64,000 nt of DNA, from contig OX637334.1 of the NCBI GenBank assembly GCA_951799405.1, positions 10,416,001-10,480,000 of the forward strand, given 5' to 3'. Every line of letters begins with the position of its first letter. Position 1 is the stretch's first letter. Position numbers and translations under genes: made by a program. Positions 177 to 47,907 of the stretch are shown in pieces. The stretch comes from Agapetus fuscipes. Its lineage: Eukaryota; Arthropoda; Insecta; Trichoptera; Glossosomatidae. A model generated the notes under the pieces. That model saw only the letters and a program-made list of their open reading frames with translations. It was not told where the DNA came from and did no database searches.

Positions 177-1382
177 TTGATCCTGGGTACGCTCATGCCC
201 CTCAATCTTAGTTGTTCTTTTCTGTCTAAAAAAATTCTAATTAAAAATTTCTCCCTTTCACAAAGGCTCATAGATTCCTTAAACATTTTGTCTAAGTACT
301 GTATGAAAAACTCATATTGGAAACATAAACACATACCAATCTTAGTTAGCTGCTTAACGGCGCTACAAAGTTATTGTAGTTGCATCAATCGTACCAATAT
401 TCTACCTATATTTTTAAGCCCTATTGAACACCTCACTTTTCTCCCCTCAGTAAAAAGGAGCACAGGACTTATAAAAACATATCACCCTAAGCAGGAACAA
501 AATTTTCAAAATTTAATCGAAAATAATTGGAAAGATTGGACAACCCTCTTTACGGATGGTTCCAAAACACCATTTCATTGGCCGTTGGTGCAGCTTTTTA
601 CTGTCCAAGTCGGTCAATTGTCTATAAATTTAAATAACCTGTAACATCAACGATTTTCTCTGCAGAGGCATATGCCATCCTGGAATCTCTTAAATTTATC
701 AATCACACGACTATTTCTCAAAATTTTGTTATTTTCTCAGACTATCTTATCCTTCCCTTTTAAACGTCCTTCAATTTCAATTATTCTAAAAATTAAATCC
801 CTCCTCTGCAGTCTATCACATTTGGGGAAAAACGTGGATCTGGTTTGGATTCCCAGCCACAGTGGAATTGTGGGTAACAAAGTGGTAGATGGCTTTGCTA
901 GAGAAGCTATTCTGACTGGTATCCCGGCCTTCCATTCTCTCCCCTACGGACCTTATTCCGTCAAACACTCTCTTCGAAATGAATGGAGTGAGATTTGGTC
1001 CTCGATATGTACAACAAAGGGAAAGTGGTACGCTGGCATCCAGCCATATTTTCCTATTTCCCCATGGTTTTATAATTATTCTGTTAGTAAACAACAAATT
1101 TCTATCCTATGCCGCATAAAAATTGGCCATTGTTGCTCTCCAGCCCACCTCTTCAAAATGAATGTAGTTGATTCTCCTTTCTGCGACTGTAAAACCGAAA
1201 TAAACGGTTTAGACCACATTTTCTTTAACTGTTTTCATCATTTTTATCAACTGTATTTTCTTTTTCTAAGAGCTGGCATCTCCATTCAATATCCCGTTAA
1301 TGTTAATTTTTTATCCCTGAATTTGAAAGCCATTAACCGTCTGTTTCTAAAATTTATTTCCCACAACAACATAAAGTTATAA
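177..1382 (+). mobile_element. Decayed LINE: RNase H and zinc-motif C-terminal region
   Basis: This is the 3' end of a non-LTR retrotransposon polyprotein. The first part ends in the RNase H motif LFTDGSK near 550. After a frame break near 580-670 the frame resumes with AEAYAILESLKF near 665 and the last RNase H block LVWIPSHSGIVGN near 840-875. A CCHC-like motif follows (PFCDC...DHIFFNC, about 1,175-1,235), the arrangement seen in RNase H-bearing insect LINEs of the I/Loa/Nimb kind. It ends at TAA near 1,380. The 5' end with endonuclease and polymerase is absent, and at least one frameshift makes it non-functional. The clade assignment is tentative. Confidence 0.8.
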
Positions 1383-9504: not shown

Positions 9505-9508
9505 ATAC
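9505..9508. repeat. Left target-site duplication (ATAC) of the Gag-DEK element
   Basis: ATAC directly precedes the 5' LTR and recurs directly after the 3' LTR at 12,574-12,577. Four base pairs fits many Ty3/gypsy-type integrases. Confidence 0.75.
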
Positions 9509-9964
9509 TGTAACGAAATACACTGGTAGATGCTTATTGGTGTACGTGTGTTTTGAGAGAATGTTCTGGCCCAGACGATTGTAATTGTAAGGTGTGTATG
9601 TAGGTAGGAAATGGACTCTTCATGAAATAAATATGTCCAGAATCGTCTATACAACTGTGGTAGTGGAACTTTCTAGGGCAGGCTGGAATGGCCCCTAGGT
9701 TCCGCTATAAGAAGGGCGACAATGGGCTGAAGCGAGTCAGTCTTTTGAAGCACTCACACAGTGGAATATCTAGTTACTAGGGCGACTAATATGGTGTAAA
9801 ATAAATGTAATCTGTGCGAAATAAATAAGTGTGTTAAAATAAATCTGTTAGAATAAGTCTGTTAAAATAAATCTATTGTAAGAAAGTCTGTGTAAATAAA
9901 CTGTATGGCTAACTTGTGTTAAACTTGTGTTTTAATTAAAAGAACCCTAAGGAAAAACGTAACA
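9509..9964 (+). repeat. 5' LTR of the Gag-DEK element
   Basis: It begins TGTAACGAAATACACTGG and ends GGAAAAACGTAACA, a TG...CA boundary. It is 456 bp and matches 12,118-12,573 base for base as far as I can read. The 3' half contains short near-repeats of GTTAAAATAAATCT. Confidence 0.93.
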
Positions 9965-9965
9965 G

Positions 9966-9981
9966 TGGTGTCGGTGTGAAG
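9966..9981 (+). promoter_or_regulatory. Putative primer-binding site
   Basis: TGGTGTCGGTGTGAAG begins one base after the 5' LTR. The leading TGG would pair with a tRNA 3' CCA end. I cannot name the tRNA from sequence alone. Confidence 0.55.
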
Positions 9982-10404
9982 TTTAAAACCAAGTACCAAG
10001 TAAAAACTGTGCTTGAAAGTATTGAAAAATATATCTGGACAACATAATAAAAAAAAAAGTTTTAAATAAAACTGATTAAACTTGAATTAAAAACGATCGT
10101 GTGGTTACCCGCTAAAAATTTGATTGAAGTGTGGATAGATAACGTGTTAATAATATTGTGTTAGTATTAGTAAATACTCATTAGCCGATCTGACGAAGCA
10201 AAGTAAATAATCATTATCTAATATCATTATTTGGTGATTTAAAAATAAATATTAAAAGGCGGTACCTACCTACCGTCAGTATAATTAGATAAATTATTAT
10301 TTTGCTAAAGTACGTATTTAAAATAACTTTATATATAAAACTCATAACCCGTATTAAATAAAATTGCAAATATTTTTGTTTTGAAGTTTGTTAAAATAAA
10401 AAAA

Positions 10405-12117
10405 ATGGCTAAGGTGCACATCAAGGACCTCAAAGTCTATGAGCTTAAGAATGAGCTTCTGGAGAGGGACCTGGAGACCTCAGGAGGGAAGGCGGCCTTA
10501 CAAGCACGCCTCATGGAGGCCTTGGAACAGTCAGGCGAAGACCCGGCATATTTTGTCATGGCGTCTGGAGGGGACCGCGAGCGAGCCGTGGAAGAGTTTA
10601 AAACAAAGATGGCTGCCAACTTCAAGAGCTTGAGGGAAGACCTAGCTGGTTGGAAGGAGGAGATGGCTAAAAACCTAGCCTTAAAAATGTCGGTGGACAC
10701 TGATAGTGTAAAATTAAGTGATAATCAGGATGACAAAAAGGCCGATATGTCAACTGAGGATGAGTCATCTCAGAAGTTGGGGAAGGGAGACCTGAAGGCC
10801 AAAAACAACGGCCAGCTCAAGGCTGAGGACTCAGCTGACAGCAAAGATGACAAAGATGATGTCAAGTCGGCTGAAAACGGCAAGAGTGACTCGGCCGAGG
10901 TGAAGGCTGACAAGGATGCGAAGGAGGAGACGGACGCCAAGGAGGAGGATGAGGACGCCAAGGACAAGAAGGGCAAGGCCAAGAAGGCCAACAGTGTGAA
11001 GAAGAAGCCCGCGCCCAAGAAGAAGGCGGAGGAGGCCGTGGAGGAGGCTCCCAAGAAGAAGAAGGCCGTGGAGCCGCCGGTGCCCGTGCCCGCGGGCCGG
11101 GGCATCCCCATCGACCACATCCCCGACGTGGAGGTGGCCATCTCCAGGTTCAAGATGGAGGACCTCAAGTTCCTGTACAATCAATTGTGCCGCACGAACC
11201 TCATCAAGCGCAACAAAAAGAAGTTCAAGGGCTACGAGTTTGAGAAGGACACGCCTGAGCACAAGGCCAAGCTGGAGGAGGTGCAGAAGCTGGAGCCCAA
11301 GCAGCTGCGGACGCTGTGCGAGAAGCTGGGCTTGGACAAGAGGGGCGCGCCCACGGAGCTGGCCAGCAGGGTGGTGGGCTTCCTGCTGCTGCCAAAGCAG
11401 GTCTCCTCGCACGCCGGGGGGCTGATGAAGGAGAGGCCGGTGACTGACCGCGGCGAGGCCACGGGAGGCAGGCCCAGAAGGTCCGCTGCTGCTATTGTCA
11501 AGAGAAGTTACTCTAACGAGGAGTATGAAACAGATCCGGAAACCAAAGTGCGGGGACCCAAAGTCAGCAGGGATGAATTAGGGGATTCAGATGGCTCGTA
11601 CAACCCGAACGGCTCCGGACAGGAGGCGGACTCTGACTTTGACCCGTCAGTGGGGGAGGGGAGCGCTCCCTCCCGCAGGCGCCGCGCCCCCGCCCGCAGG
11701 GGCTCAGCCAAGCAGAGCAAGCCGAAGGGACGACCCAAGCATGGCGCGGCAGGAAGCCACTCAGCGAGTCAGAGGACGAGAGCAAGAGTGAGAACTCCGC
11801 TTCCGAGCAGGAGAGCGGCTCCGACAACCAAGGATTCTGATCCTTTGACGCAGGAGCCGGCGAGCAAGCGGAGCCGAGGAGCGGTGGCTGACCGGGGACG
11901 CAAGGCGGCGCCCCCAACCAAGGAAAGGCGCTCATGCCGGCCGCCAAGAGGAAAGCACCCCCCCCCACACCAGCCAGCAATGACGGGCAAAACCCTAAGG
12001 GGAAAATTCCGTGGAACGTCATTTTTCCTGACCACTGGATGCAACTGTGGGTCAAACTGCCCGTACCTTCTTAAAGAAAAGACTGTTCCGGGGCGGAACA
12101 GCCTAAGGGGGGGATAA
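10405..12117 (+). CDS. Gag-like SAP N-terminus fused to captured DEK chromatin protein
   Basis: The start chosen is the ATG at 10,405 in the good context AAAAAATGGCT. An in-frame ATG-less stretch (TTG at 10,381) precedes it. The frame gives 570 residues. Residues 1-94 hold a SAP-like helix-extended-helix motif (LKVYELKNELLERDLETSGG) and resemble N-termini of insect Gag proteins. From residue 95 it becomes an acidic and lysine-rich tract. Residues about 239-331 then match the DNA-binding core of DEK (IPDVEVAISRF, FLYNQLCRTNL, FKGYEFEKDTPE, LRTLCEKLGLDKRGAPTEL, GFLLLPK). DEK binds chromatin and distorted DNA. The C-terminal DEK domain is missing. After about residue 444 the frame appears shifted: the +2 register has an acidic serine-rich DEK-like tail (SESEDESKSENSASEQESG). 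The stop codon abuts the 3' LTR. No introns are present, which implies capture from spliced RNA. Whether the protein is made is unknown. Confidence 0.85.
   Translation: MAKVHIKDLKVYELKNELLERDLETSGGKAALQARLMEALEQSGEDPAYFVMASGGDRERAVEEFKTKMAANFKSLREDLAGWKEEMAKNLALKMSVDTDSVKLSDNQDDKKADMSTEDESSQKLGKGDLKAKNNGQLKAEDSADSKDDKDDVKSAENGKSDSAEVKADKDAKEETDAKEEDEDAKDKKGKAKKANSVKKKPAPKKKAEEAVEEAPKKKKAVEPPVPVPAGRGIPIDHIPDVEVAISRFKMEDLKFLYNQLCRTNLIKRNKKKFKGYEFEKDTPEHKAKLEEVQKLEPKQLRTLCEKLGLDKRGAPTELASRVVGFLLLPKQVSSHAGGLMKERPVTDRGEATGGRPRRSAAAIVKRSYSNEEYETDPETKVRGPKVSRDELGDSDGSYNPNGSGQEADSDFDPSVGEGSAPSRRRRAPARRGSAKQSKPKGRPKHGAAGSHSASQRTRARVRTPLPSRRAAPTTKDSDPLTQEPASKRSRGAVADRGRKAAPPTKERRSCRPPRGKHPPPHQPAMTGKTLRGKFRGTSFFLTTGCNCGSNCPYLLKEKTVPGRNSLRGG
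12102..12117 (+). promoter_or_regulatory. Polypurine tract before the 3' LTR
   Basis: The purine-rich AAGGGGGGGATAA immediately precedes the 3' LTR, the position of the plus-strand primer in LTR retroelements. The end of the Gag-DEK reading frame overlaps it. Confidence 0.75.
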
Positions 12118-12573
12118 TGTAACGAAATACACTGGTAGATGCTTATTGGTGTACGTGTGTTTTGAGAGAATGTTCTGGCCCAGACGATTGTAATTGTAAG
12201 GTGTGTATGTAGGTAGGAAATGGACTCTTCATGAAATAAATATGTCCAGAATCGTCTATACAACTGTGGTAGTGGAACTTTCTAGGGCAGGCTGGAATGG
12301 CCCCTAGGTTCCGCTATAAGAAGGGCGACAATGGGCTGAAGCGAGTCAGTCTTTTGAAGCACTCACACAGTGGAATATCTAGTTACTAGGGCGACTAATA
12401 TGGTGTAAAATAAATGTAATCTGTGCGAAATAAATAAGTGTGTTAAAATAAATCTGTTAGAATAAGTCTGTTAAAATAAATCTATTGTAAGAAAGTCTGT
12501 GTAAATAAACTGTATGGCTAACTTGTGTTAAACTTGTGTTTTAATTAAAAGAACCCTAAGGAAAAACGTAACA
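12118..12573 (+). repeat. 3' LTR of the Gag-DEK element
   Basis: It is 456 bp, TG...CA, reads as identical to 9,509-9,964 and is followed by ATAC. Confidence 0.93.
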
Positions 12574-12812
12574 ATACTATCGCGGATGAGCTGAGAATAA
12601 TCTACTTTCTAAGTTTGCAATGATTTTCTGTCTCAAAATATATGTACCTACTTGTGAATTTCTGTATTTCTTATTACAACACCCATTTTGAGCACCGAGT
12701 TTGAAGATGAAAGATGAAAGAAATCAAGTTAAAAATGAATGAAAGGAAAGTGGGGTGTGGAGTGTTGAAGGAAGATGAAGTAAAATAAAATAAGATGGCG
12801 TGGGATGTGTAC

Positions 12813-32937: not shown

Positions 32938-33945
32938 AATAATCTATAATCTAAGTTGCAAAGATATATTCATTTAAAGCTCTCAGATGTATGCCCACAA
33001 ACCAACAAGTGTAGTTCGCGCTTACAAATGCTGAATGTGTACTTACAAATAAAATCCAAACCTCAAATGAACATAAGCCCCACAACTTTTGCCGACCTTC
33101 CCTGAAACAGGGGTGACATTGGCAAAGTGAACCATTTTTTACAGTATGGGTGGTCAGCCTCATACCAACCTATAATTCAAGGAATATGAATAATAAATTA
33201 CATTTAAATATAAAAAAGAACAAAACCTTACAAAGAAATCTATACAAAAAAAGTCAAAAATTTCCTATGCAAAAAATGTAGCAAATGAATACACCAACAT
33301 TAGAAATCAACATTGCAGATTAGCCGCCACTTCTTCCTGTCCTTGCATACTTCTTTCATTTCATCCAGAGTCATAACCTTTTTCATACAAGTCCTCCTTT
33401 TATTATGACTCTGGATATCCCATTCATTCGCTATTTCAGAGATTTGATCCTTCCATACTTTTCTCGGTCTTCCTCTACCACGACATCCATCTATTCTAGC
33501 AACATATACTTTCTTCGTCAATCTTTCATCACTCATTCTCTCCAAGTGCCCGAACCATCTTAACATACTTCTTTTAATCTTCACTTTCACACTTTCCCTT
33601 ACACCACATTCTTCTCTTACAAAATCATTCCTCACCCTGTCACTTCGTTTTTTCCCAATCATACTTCTTAGATAGTCCATTTCTACTGTATGGACTTTAC
33701 TAATTTCCCTTTCACTCACCGTCCAGGCTTCACTTCCATACATCAAGGTTGGCACTAGTATACCACCGTGCACCGCCAATCTAACATTTTTTGAGAGATT
33801 TTGGTTCCTGGCGATGCAAGCGGTTGCACCCAGTACACACCTGCCTTTCATTATTCTTCTTTCAAATTCACCGGCCATTCTTCCATCTTTTTCAAACTTA
33901 CATCCCAAATATACAAACTCATTTACAACATCAACATTCTTCTTT
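32938..33945 (-). mobile_element. LINE 3' end: C-terminal domain plus unit A
   Basis: On the minus strand an open frame (stop at 33,300) runs from about 33,945 and encodes the domain after the reverse transcriptase. It carries EFVYLGCKFEKDGRM, LMYGSEAWTV, RSMLRWFGHLERM, GRGRPRKVWKDQIS and KDRKKWRLICNV. About 110 nt of AT-rich sequence then leads into unit A at 33,188-32,938. The polymerase core is missing, so the copy is 5' truncated, but the remaining ~200 codons are unbroken, which suggests a fairly young insertion. Confidence 0.85.
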
Positions 33946-42222: not shown

Positions 42223-43288
42223 ATCTAATCTAATCTAATCTAAGTTGCAAGGATATGTTACATTGGAGATTCACATTACATGCATTCTCACAACCAGACA
42301 CGTACAAGTTCGCGCTTGCACATGCCTCATGTGAACCTACAACATAAAAACCAAATCTCAAATGGACATACACCCTGCAACTCTTGCCGTCCTTCCCTGA
42401 GACAGGGGTGACATTGGCAAAGTGAAACCATTTTTACAGCATGGGTGGTCAGCCGCATACCAACCTATAAGTCAAGGAACACACACACACGACAAATTAC
42501 ATTTTATACATCATTAAATAATAATATCCAAATACAAAATATCCATTTACAAACAAAAACAAATTCCAATTTAATAAACCCTAGCCGCCAACATTACAGA
42601 TCAACCGCCATTTCTTTCTGTCTTTACATACTTCTTTCATTTCCTCCAGAGTCATAACCTTCTTCATACAAGCTCTTCTTTTATTATGACTCTGGATATT
42701 CCATTCATTCGCAATTTCGGATATTTGGTCCATCCATACCTTTCTCGGTCTTCCTCTACCACGAAATCCATCTATTCTACCAACATATACTTTCTTCGTC
42801 AGTCTTTCCTCATTCATTCTCTCCATATGCCCAAACCATCTTAACAAACTTCTTTTAATCTTCACTTTCACACTTTCTCTTGCACCACATTCTTCTCTTA
42901 CAAAATCATTCCTCACCCTGTCACTCCGTTTTTTCCCAATCATACTTCTTAGAAAGTTCATTTCAACAGTATGGACTTTACTAATTTCACTTTCATTCAC
43001 CGTCCAGGCCTCGCTTCCATACATCAAGGTGGGTAAAAGTATGCCACTGCGTACCGCCAAGCGAGCATTTTTTGATATGTTTTGATTTTTGGCGATACAA
43101 GCTGTGGCACCCAGTACACACCTGCCCTTCATTACTCTTCTTTCAAATTCACCGGTCATTCTTCCATCTTTTTCAAACTTACTTCCCAGGTATACAAACT
43201 CATTTACGACATCAACATTCATTCCATTAATTTTAAATTCATAATTCATACTTTCATCATCTCTTTCAAAAATCAATATTGTAAACAA
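42222..43288 (-). mobile_element. LINE 3' end: longest intact C-terminal frame plus unit A
   Basis: On the minus strand a 235-codon frame (42,581-43,288) encodes EFVYLGSKFEKDGRMTG, LMYGSEAWTVNES, LLRWFGHMERMNEER, GRGRPRKVWMDQISE and ends KDRKKWRLICNVGG. About 100 nt later unit A occupies 42,480-42,222 and ends in a (TCTAA)n tail. The frame lacks stops and is the best copy of this domain in the window, but the polymerase is absent. Confidence 0.88.
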
Positions 43289-45089: not shown

Positions 45090-45356
45090 ATGGCTGGCAC
45101 TGCTCTGTCTAATTTGCCATTTTTGGATGAGAAGTCAAACTTTAGTACGTGGAAATTTCGTCTAAAACTTATTCTACAGGAGAAGCAGGTTGAATATGTG
45201 TTGGATGAAAATGAAATTAATACAGAAAAATCCAAAAAGGATGATGCGAAAGCTAAATCAATCTTGGCTCAAAGCGTGTCTGATAAATATATAGAAATCA
45301 TTAAGGATGGCAGAACTGCAAGAGAAATGCTTCATTTTCTTCAAAATGTTTTTTGA
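45090..45356 (+). pseudogene. Copia gag, N-terminal part before a frame break
   Basis: The ATG at 45,090 (AAAAAATGGCT) opens a frame with copia-type Gag features, including LPFLDEKSNFSTWKFRLK and LAQSVSDKYIEIIK. It ends at TGA just after a run of six T (45,348-45,353). The same protein continues one base later in the next frame, so either a single T has been gained here or expression would need a +1 shift. Confidence 0.85.
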
Positions 45357-47907
45357 AAGAAAAAGTGTTTTCAACAGATTCCACTTGAAACGCAAATTAA
45401 TAACATTGAAATGCAATAATGAGCCGCTGCAGCAATATCTAATCAAGTTTAGTTCGATTATCAGCGACCTGAAAGCCATCGACGTCAAAGTAGACGAAGA
45501 AGATCAAATTTGTTACCTACTCTCATCACTGCCGAAAGAATATGATCCTGTAATTACATCAATAGAAACAATGGCTTCAGAAAAGAAGTTAAGTTTTGAT
45601 TTTGTCAAGGCCAGACTGTTGGATGCCGAAACTAAGATCAGCACCGATACAGTGAACCAGGAGAACGCATTTATGATGTACTGTTACACATGCGGGAAAC
45701 CAGGGCACAAGTCTTATGAGTGTAGTACTGGTAATAAGGAACAAGGAAAATACAGAGGAGGACGGAACCAAGGTCAAGGTCGAGGTTATGGTCAAAATCG
45801 CAGAGGAAGAGGCAGATTTCAAGGACGAGTATCCCGAGGCAGAGGCTTCCCGGGACAAGGTGCTACTTCATTAATGAGTGAATCTGAGATCGGTTTTGTA
45901 GCCAGTGAAAATGTTTTTAGTGCTGAAAGTATAAACAAAGGCTATGATATCACCTTCATTGTGGACTCAGGGTGCACACAACATCTTGTAAGTGAAAAAT
46001 TGGAAAAATACATGACAAACATTCAAATACTAGATAAAAGTGTAAAAATATTAGTTGCAAATGGCCAGTACATTAATGCTTATAAAAAAGGTAATTTAAA
46101 AATAAAATACAAAAACTTAAAAATAAATGTTGATGCTTTAATTGTAGAAAACATAATCTATAACTTACTCTCAGTCAAAAAGATAACCGAGGCCGGATTT
46201 CATGTAAAGTTTGATAAATATAAAGTTGTTATTACTGGAAAGAATTCATTTGTTACTGGTAATTCTGATGGGAAATTGTACAAATTAAATGCTAATGTAT
46301 GTCATGAAGTGTGTAATATTAGTACAGGTAAAAACCAATGTGATGATGTTCTTTGGCACAAACGTCTGGGCCATTTAAATAGAAAATGTTTGGGTATTAT
46401 GCACCTACCAATAAGTAATAAAACGTGCAGCCCATGTATGGAAGGAAAGGCAACTAGAGAACCATTTCAGCAGACAACAAGACCAAGATCTAAAAGAGTA
46501 GCAGAAATGTTGCACACAGACATAGCGGGACCTGTCAAGGAGTGTGGACTAAATGGTGAGAAATATTTCATGACGGTATTAGATGATTATTCTCATTTCT
46601 GTGTAGTGTTCCCTTTGGTAAACAAATCTGAAGCAACAGAGAAACTGATTGACTATATAAGAAGGATTGAAAATGAAACTGGAAGTACAGTTCAGCGAAT
46701 CAGGTGCGACAATGGCGGGGAATATACAGCCAACAAGTTAAAAGATTTTTGTAAGAAAAAAGGAATAAGTTTAGAATATACTTTACCCTACACAAAACAG
46801 TCCAACGGTGTAGCGGAAAGATTAAATCGTACCTTGTGTGATAAGGTAAGAACTTTATTTGCAGATACTAATTTGCCCAAAACTTTATGGTGCGAAGCTA
46901 TTCAATGTGCTGCCTATCAGCTGAACAGGTCACCTTCATCAGCAATAAATTATAAAACACCGTGTTTCATGAAAAATGGAACCTGTGACCTATCAAGACT
47001 AAGAGCTTTTGGCGCAAAGGCGTGGGCCACTATTGTACCTCAACGCGACAAACTGAATAAAAGAGGAAAAGAGACAAGAATGGTTGGCTATAATACAGTG
47101 GGATACAGATTGTGGAATCCAGAAGAAAATTCAATAATAATATCAAGAGATGTGAGATTTGATGAAAGTGATACAGTATACAAAAAGGAAGAAAACGAGG
47201 AAAGAAGATATATTCAAGAAGAAGAAGAAGAAAACCAAGAAAATAAAATAGAGATGAGACAAGAAGAGAAACAAGAAACTGAGAATTTGGAAGGAAAAGG
47301 AAACAAACAAGTCACTGATGAGGGAAATTTAAACAAGGATGCAACAAGAGAAGAGAAAACAACAAGATCAGGAAGAATAGTAACACAACCTGCACATCTT
47401 GATGAGTATGAGACAAATATAGTTATTTGCTTGAGCGCAAATACACCTAGCTCCTATGAAGAGGCTATAAGCAATACAGAATGGAAAGAAGCTATCAATA
47501 AAGAGTTACAAGCACTTGAAAAGTTAGAGACCTGGGAAGAAAAAGAATTACCCAAAGGAAAGAAAGCTATTGAAACCAAATGGATTTTTAAAGAAAAAGA
47601 TGAAGAAACCAAAAAGGCTAGACTAGTTGTGAAAGGATTCCAACAGCAGAAAGGAGATATTTTTGATAGCAATTATGCCCCTGTTGCGAGACACTCTACA
47701 GTGAGAATGTTTCTATCAAAGGCAGTCCAAGAAGACTTAATGATTACTCAACTTGATATACCATCAGCGTTTTTGAACGGAAAACTAAAGTCAGATGTAT
47801 ACATAAAAGTTCCTCAAGGATTGAAATCAAAGAATTCAAATACAGTATTAAAACTAAGAAGAAACAATCATGTGTTGCTTTGTCGACAGCAGAAGCTGAG
47901 TACATAG
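45355..47907 (+). pseudogene. Copia gag-pol: zinc knuckle, protease, integrase, truncated RT
   Basis: The frame is open from 45,307, and homologous sequence starts after the break near 45,355 (ERKSVFNRFHLKRKL). Domains in order: CCHC knuckle CYTCGKPGHKSYEC near 45,682; aspartic protease IVDSGCTQHL near 45,958; integrase zinc region HKRLGH...CSPC near 46,356-46,440; catalytic D in HTDIAGP (46,515), D in RCDNGGEY (46,705) and E in SNGVAERLNRT (46,802); and RT start KWIFKEK and QLDIPSAFLNGKL (47,749). The frame then jumps at about 47,853 into RNase H sequence in the wrong register and stops at 47,907. The RT catalytic YxDD region is lost. Confidence 0.9.

Follow-up and report, generated by a model that had tools for sequence, protein, structure and literature searches.

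We found a long terminal repeat (LTR) retrotransposon carrying a spliced copy of the chromatin protein gene DEK in a 64,000-nucleotide stretch from the trichopteran insect Agapetus fuscipes (GenBank assembly GCA_951799405.1, contig OX637334.1, positions 10,416,001 to 10,480,000 of the forward strand), which is called the window below and is numbered from its first letter. The complete element, including its target-site duplications (TSDs), occupies 9505-12577 of the window, with all its features on the forward strand, and encodes DEK as an in-frame fusion to the start of a Gag protein. It belongs to a dispersed and young family. With a probability of roughly 85%, this is a non-autonomous element of Ty3/Gypsy type which captured spliced DEK and has been moved in trans, with DEK as a passenger or a relaxed functional module.

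The outline of the element is complete. Its 5' LTR (9509..9964) and 3' LTR (12118..12573) both measure 456 bp and agree at 456/456 bases, starting with TGTAACG and ending with CGTAACA, and the TSD ATAC stands on the left (9505..9508) and on the right (12574..12577). These paired direct repeats with TG..CA ends and a short TSD identify an LTR retrotransposon. A primer-binding-site candidate that begins with TGG, TGGTGTCGGTGTGAAG (9966..9981), lies one base past the LTR; no tRNA was matched to it, and it varies between copies. The polypurine tract AAGGGGGGGATAA (12105..12117) is plain and adjoins the 3' LTR, its final three bases being the stop codon of a single frame of 570 codons (10405..12117). 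The initial annotation, made from the window's letters alone, had listed the paired repeats, the 4-bp duplication, the purine tract, the primer site and one intronless frame, and each was recovered, the primer site still as a candidate. Between the 5' LTR and the frame lies a leader (9965..10404), of which the last ~175 bases are 88-90% identical to a relative with gag and pol genes on contig C8. Within the family, TGGTGTCGGTGTGAAG, TGGTGTCAGGTGTGGGG and other primer-site variants coexist with otherwise similar LTRs, a variety that looks as if leaders had been exchanged with other elements.

The frame begins as Gag. Residues 1-94 (10405..10686) comprise a SAP domain (residues 6-41, 10420-10527; Pfam E 1.1e-08) followed by a coiled coil. 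The Gag of the C8 relative has the same start, followed by a match to Retrotrans_gag and one, just below cut-off, to a zinc knuckle; it is accompanied by a pol frame, 1418 codons in the stretch read, with protease, reverse transcriptase, RNase H and integrase. DNA identity between the window and the relative's gag start is 90% up to 10579 and 74-79% from there to ~10674. Because the two Gag starts are alike, residues 1-94 are Gag's own sequence, as the initial annotation had proposed from their Gag-like appearance, and an origin of this N-terminus from DEK itself is ruled out. The Pfam SAP label is also found on 14 of the 16 proteins (P0013-P0028) among the matches listed to the relative's Gag, for which 7997 candidates were scored, and SAP domains are common in Gags of this type. 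The relative also hosts a DEK copy of the family (L032/L031), nested antisense within it. Around the gag start the DNA likeness to the window is 90%, yet the LTRs differ, with no match found between the relative's LTR and that of the window; this pattern of likeness suggests a mosaic history. Another copy, L063 on C16, has no whole 5' LTR, and upstream of it lies a Pol C-terminus identical to that of the C8 relative over 48 residues; it is perhaps a recombinant.

From residue 95 the frame turns into DEK, which is read in its own frame to residue 446 (10687..11742) with the core at 11119-11397, in agreement with the placing of the core at residues ~239-331 in the initial annotation. Against DEK proteins, region 113-460 reaches a best E of 2.1e-66 (10 matches listed, the named best ones lepidopteran), and solved DEK chains align with residues 170-334 at a best E of 7.8e-13. 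The SAP-type core of DEK is thus present by sequence, and loosely by predicted fold, and a protein with two SAP-type modules is supported to the same degree; the DEK_C domain is absent from the frame. Beyond residue ~445, a 40-base deletion together with a +1 and a -1 change puts part of the DEK exon sequence out of DEK's own frame. The frame closes with a remnant of Pol (11999..12117), which agrees with the pol end of the relative at 76% in DNA and at 77% over 31 residues; about the last 31-40 residues are the C-terminus of a Pol-type polyprotein. By reading, this remnant contains a CCCH-like finger whose first Cys and His are lost; the corresponding finger in the relative's pol frame is a match below cut-off. 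The claim that the element has no pol was therefore nearly correct, needing a small amendment for this C-terminal piece. Of Gag and Pol, the start of the one and the end of the other are present in all 30 insert loci, one of which is the window's own, and only these were matched between the LTRs. The Gag capsid and the protease, reverse transcriptase, RNase H and integrase of an autonomous Ty3/Gypsy element are lacking in the 30 insert loci and present in the relative.

The donor of the insert can be seen in the same genome. A genome search with a DEK_C peptide gave one place, on contig C11, where six exons corresponding to the insert (X1 partly) lie in two stretches, L073 and L074. Their introns are of the GT..AG type (154, 1068, 656, 449 and 730 bases), and all five are absent between the LTRs. 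The comparison spans X1 (part), X2, X3, A, B and C, covering DEK from residue ~207 of the frame onwards. Exon X2 corresponds to 11182..11506 (L074 629-953, reverse complement; 93.9% identity) and is joined to X1 and X3 without introns. It is followed by X3 at 11507..11592 (L074 2022-2107, reverse complement; 93.1%), A at 11593..11741 (92.8%), whose 3' end was lost to the 40-base deletion across the A/B joint, and B at 11743..11841 (92.9%), whose 5' part is deleted and which is read out of DEK's frame. Exon C (11842..11973; 94.0%) is joined to B splice-exactly, and host homology stops about its 3' end, placing the 3' joint there or 3 bases beyond. At the other end, CTTAAAA precedes the ATG in both the window and the older copy L071, and the 5' joint can be inferred to lie just upstream of DEK's start codon. 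Recombination with a host mRNA, as the initial annotation had envisaged, is supported by this spliced insert and by the introns in the genome's own gene.

DNA identity to the host exons is 93.7% for the window and 94.2-96.9% for ten other copies. The -40/+1/-1 set is common to ten of these eleven copies, while L071 combines the same +1 and -1 with a deletion of 104 bases at the site of the 40-base one; therefore, all derive from one capture. The core protein of the insert is only 49-60% identical to six other DEKs, from which an ancient, fast-evolving DEK within the element was first inferred. The ~94% identity to the genome's own exons rules this out, and most of the distance to other DEKs thus belongs to the host gene. 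Host DEK itself is 53-71% identical to other DEKs in matched pieces of the core and ~91% or more in DEK_C.

The family is dispersed and young. A search with the insert gave 440 candidate places, and the best 40, all of them scored as full length at 99-100%, lie on 24 contigs; 24 partial matches were found in addition. The LTR gave 1090 candidates, the best 40 again all full length (98-100%), and the DEK protein gave 1042, with 64 of the best 68 scored free of stops; these totals are candidates and not confirmed counts. We read 38 copies, leaving out L040, which is the window again. Both LTRs are whole in 36 of them (not in L063 and L066), and 33 of these 36 have matching 4-base TSDs (not L048, L056 and L067). 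The LTR pairs are identical in 27 copies and have one mismatch in nine, with a 16-base gap in addition in L042. Read from the Gag start, the frame extends over 550 codons or more in 34/36 copies (not in L032 and L037), and in 29 of these it reaches the common end. With 9 mismatches in ~16,380 bases of LTR pairs, the copies are young enough for their frames to be open without any selection, and the open frames are ruled out as proof of it. Among 30 LTR loci, 19 lie within DEK elements and 11 are LTR-only, nine of the latter with a matching TSD; no gag or pol was found near these 11. A ~300-base internal duplication (about window 11668-11965) defines a subfamily that comprises 20 of the 30 insert loci (L040-L069). 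It repeats the basic DEK tail and the sequence that follows, giving frames of 651-668 codons.

Three older copies give the family a history. L071 has a longer Gag coiled coil ahead of the DEK start and Pol residues 1282-1353 after exon C. In a DEK-segment tree of the window, 17 further copies and the host, in which several inner supports are low, the host stands beside L071, followed ladder-like by L070, L072 and the young copies. The position of L071 near the host and its longer Gag and Pol pieces suggest that capture came first and trimming later. A 12-base deletion inside the core is found in all 15 young copies compared and in none of L070-L072. In L072 (C20), an insertion of 40 bases, apparently a local inverted duplication, shifts the frame ahead of exon B.

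In the origin that we propose, DEK mRNA, already spliced, recombined with RNA or cDNA of an element with a SAP-Gag; a template switch within that element's particles would be the simplest route. DEK would have taken the place of everything between the late coiled coil of Gag and the C-terminal portion of Pol, and the chimera would have retained the LTRs, leader, primer-binding-site candidate and polypurine tract. Gag-pol relatives may have copied it in trans; the chimera would then have been trimmed, and it has recently amplified, with hundreds of candidate places. Its predicted product, if translated, would be a Gag (SAP and coiled coil)-DEK-Pol tail protein.

What DEK contributes was judged from substitutions. 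Our set of recent variants has 41 rows for 40 elements, since L029 and L042 are one element, and this double entry can make a private variant look shared. The 84 variants comprise 57 nonsynonymous, 2 stop and 25 synonymous changes (expected 58.2, 3.0 and 22.8) and fit neutrality. Polarised counts of synonymous to nonsynonymous changes (S:N) are 14:2 for the host plus the element stem and 5:0 private to L071. On the branches to the young group they are 2:2, 1:6 and 0:2 (sum 3:10), and private counts are 2:9 for L070, 2:5 for L072 and 1:2 for the window. The host-window comparison gives a synonymous rate (dS) of 0.14 and a nonsynonymous rate (dN) of 0.035, that of host and L071 a dS of 0.173 and a dN of 0.006. 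Nei-Gojobori ratios of L070 and L072 to the rest range from 0.34 to 1.18. Against the window, with a matched mutation spectrum, the ratios are 1.21 for L070 (P 0.75), 0.62 for L071 (P 0.05) and 0.66 for L072 (P 0.19). We read these small numbers as pointing to constraint on DEK residues near the capture, with no detectable constraint in the amplified lineage. Most likely, DEK is a passenger, or else a relaxed module for nucleosome binding, and amplification would not have depended on its exact sequence.

Some results weigh against this reading of a passenger element moved in trans. An autonomous, pol-bearing relative with the same LTR, which the initial annotation had considered, was not found among the 30 LTR loci, and the LTR of the known relative differs. 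Since similarity to the window decided the ranking of copies, youth and intactness are over-represented in our copy sets. In addition, L071 compared with five other copies over the DEK part gives Nei-Gojobori dN/dS ratios of 0.40-0.50 (0.47 against L070), which speaks against a pure passenger.

The fusion might instead be at work: its Gag part would join the particles of a partner element, and its DEK core would tie the particle or cDNA to nucleosomes, or loosen silencing, and so aid amplification. We consider this rather unlikely, although several observations favour it. The DEK core is retained, the frame measures 550 codons or more in 34/36 copies and remains open across several tail indels, and the S:N counts near the capture (14:2; 5:0 for L071) indicate constraint. 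A predicted model of residues 1-446, built on an alignment with DEK proteins, has DEK-nucleosome complexes as its best PDB matches in Foldseek, the first being 8kcy (E 5e-4). Nucleosome tethers are known from the retroviral Gag proteins of prototype foamy virus (PFV; PMC12125541) and murine leukaemia virus (MLV p12; PMC6021111), as described in the accessible parts of these papers, and a similar Gag-DEK tether is possible by analogy. However, the model superimposes only loosely on the DEK-nucleosome complex (root mean square deviation 19 A, template modelling score 0.44 on target). Its mean predicted local distance difference test score is 54.8, with 80-94 in the coiled-coil residues 61-100 and 81-90 in DEK residues 281-330, and only 41-66 in residues 241-280. 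The 12-base core deletion in 15 young copies, the neutral-like current variants and the 3:10 sum on the young branches also speak against a working fusion, as does the youth of the copies, which makes open frames expected without selection. The young-lineage substitutions lean towards a passenger or relaxed function rather than a tether. That the element uses the captured protein in partner particles to anchor its DNA to nucleosomes or to open silenced copies, and that this drove the burst, seems unlikely to us. If true, a domain taken from the host would here serve a retroelement as its chromatin tether.

Capture of DEK in a different species, followed by arrival of the element through horizontal transfer, is likewise unlikely. 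Such an origin would account for a host-insert dS of 0.13-0.17 that exceeds the 0.04-0.09 among element lineages, and most of the change between host and insert is host-like (S:N 14:2), as between two diverged host genes; the early constraint could then have acted on a cellular gene of a different species. However, the host branch alone could carry most of these changes, and at the DNA level the insert and the DEK exons of this genome agree at ~94%, compared with 49-60% core protein identity to the six other DEKs. An assembly join, or a single chimeric DEK retrocopy beside unrelated LTRs, for which nothing speaks beyond a view of the window as a single copy, is ruled out by the genome search for the DEK insert, which revealed full copies in large number, dispersed and with TSDs of their own.

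Elsewhere in the window, an 866-codon frame at 45307-47907 (+) presumably belongs to a Ty1/copia gag-pol, with zinc knuckle, integrase and the start of a reverse transcriptase. Three further frames, at 33300-33878 (-), 42581-43249 (-) and 672-1382 (+), we take to be pieces of non-LTR retrotransposons with a reverse transcriptase tail and RNase H.

A single genome here contains the DEK donor, copies graded from older to very young, a relative with gag and pol, and candidate places in the hundreds, which allows capture, trimming, maintenance of the frame and selection to be followed stepwise. This turns into a testable question whether a stolen chromatin protein aids the spread of a mobile element or merely rides along. 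No Gag-DEK fusion of another species was found among the matches listed (1 and 10 proteins) in searches of limited sensitivity. The literature searched, with subscription papers mostly outside its reach, holds no description of a Gag-DEK element, in line with the earlier remark that no described family of this design was known; judged by titles and the opening lines of abstracts, no listed paper on DEK and LTR retrotransposons deals with such an element, and the word DEK is absent from the main text of a lepidopteran retrocopy survey (PMC11675541).

Among the systems close to the window element are Ty3/Gypsy elements with a SAP-Gag, namely the relative on C8 and P0013-P0028, which share its Gag start; the C8 relative also shares the Pol end and has capsid and pol but no DEK. 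The maize element Bs1 has lost pol. Capture of host genes by LTR elements is already known from plants and animals, according to the available parts of PMC6431247, PMC5408686 and PMC3726574, to which the following comparisons are confined, and it is the Gag-DEK design that is new to the literature searched. Bs1 is likewise an LTR element involved in copying host genes, but it is a plant element with three cellular genes (PMC5408686), compared with one insect chromatin gene here. Genes captured by LTR elements in rice and sorghum also lie inside the elements, some neutral and some under purifying selection; these are plant cases in which DEK is not named (PMC3726574), and ours is an insect DEK. 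The nucleosome-binding parts of PFV Gag and MLV p12 show how the present fusion may work, and the accessible text names no captured host domain for them (PMC12125541, PMC6021111), whereas here the candidate module is captured DEK. In the animal chimeras from LTR-mediated retroposition (Tan and coworkers, in PMC5408686), for which a template switch in particles is the published model, spliced host mRNA is likewise joined to retroelement sequence. Those published cases are retrocopies, whereas in Agapetus fuscipes the chimera itself, with its in-frame Gag fusion, is the amplified family.
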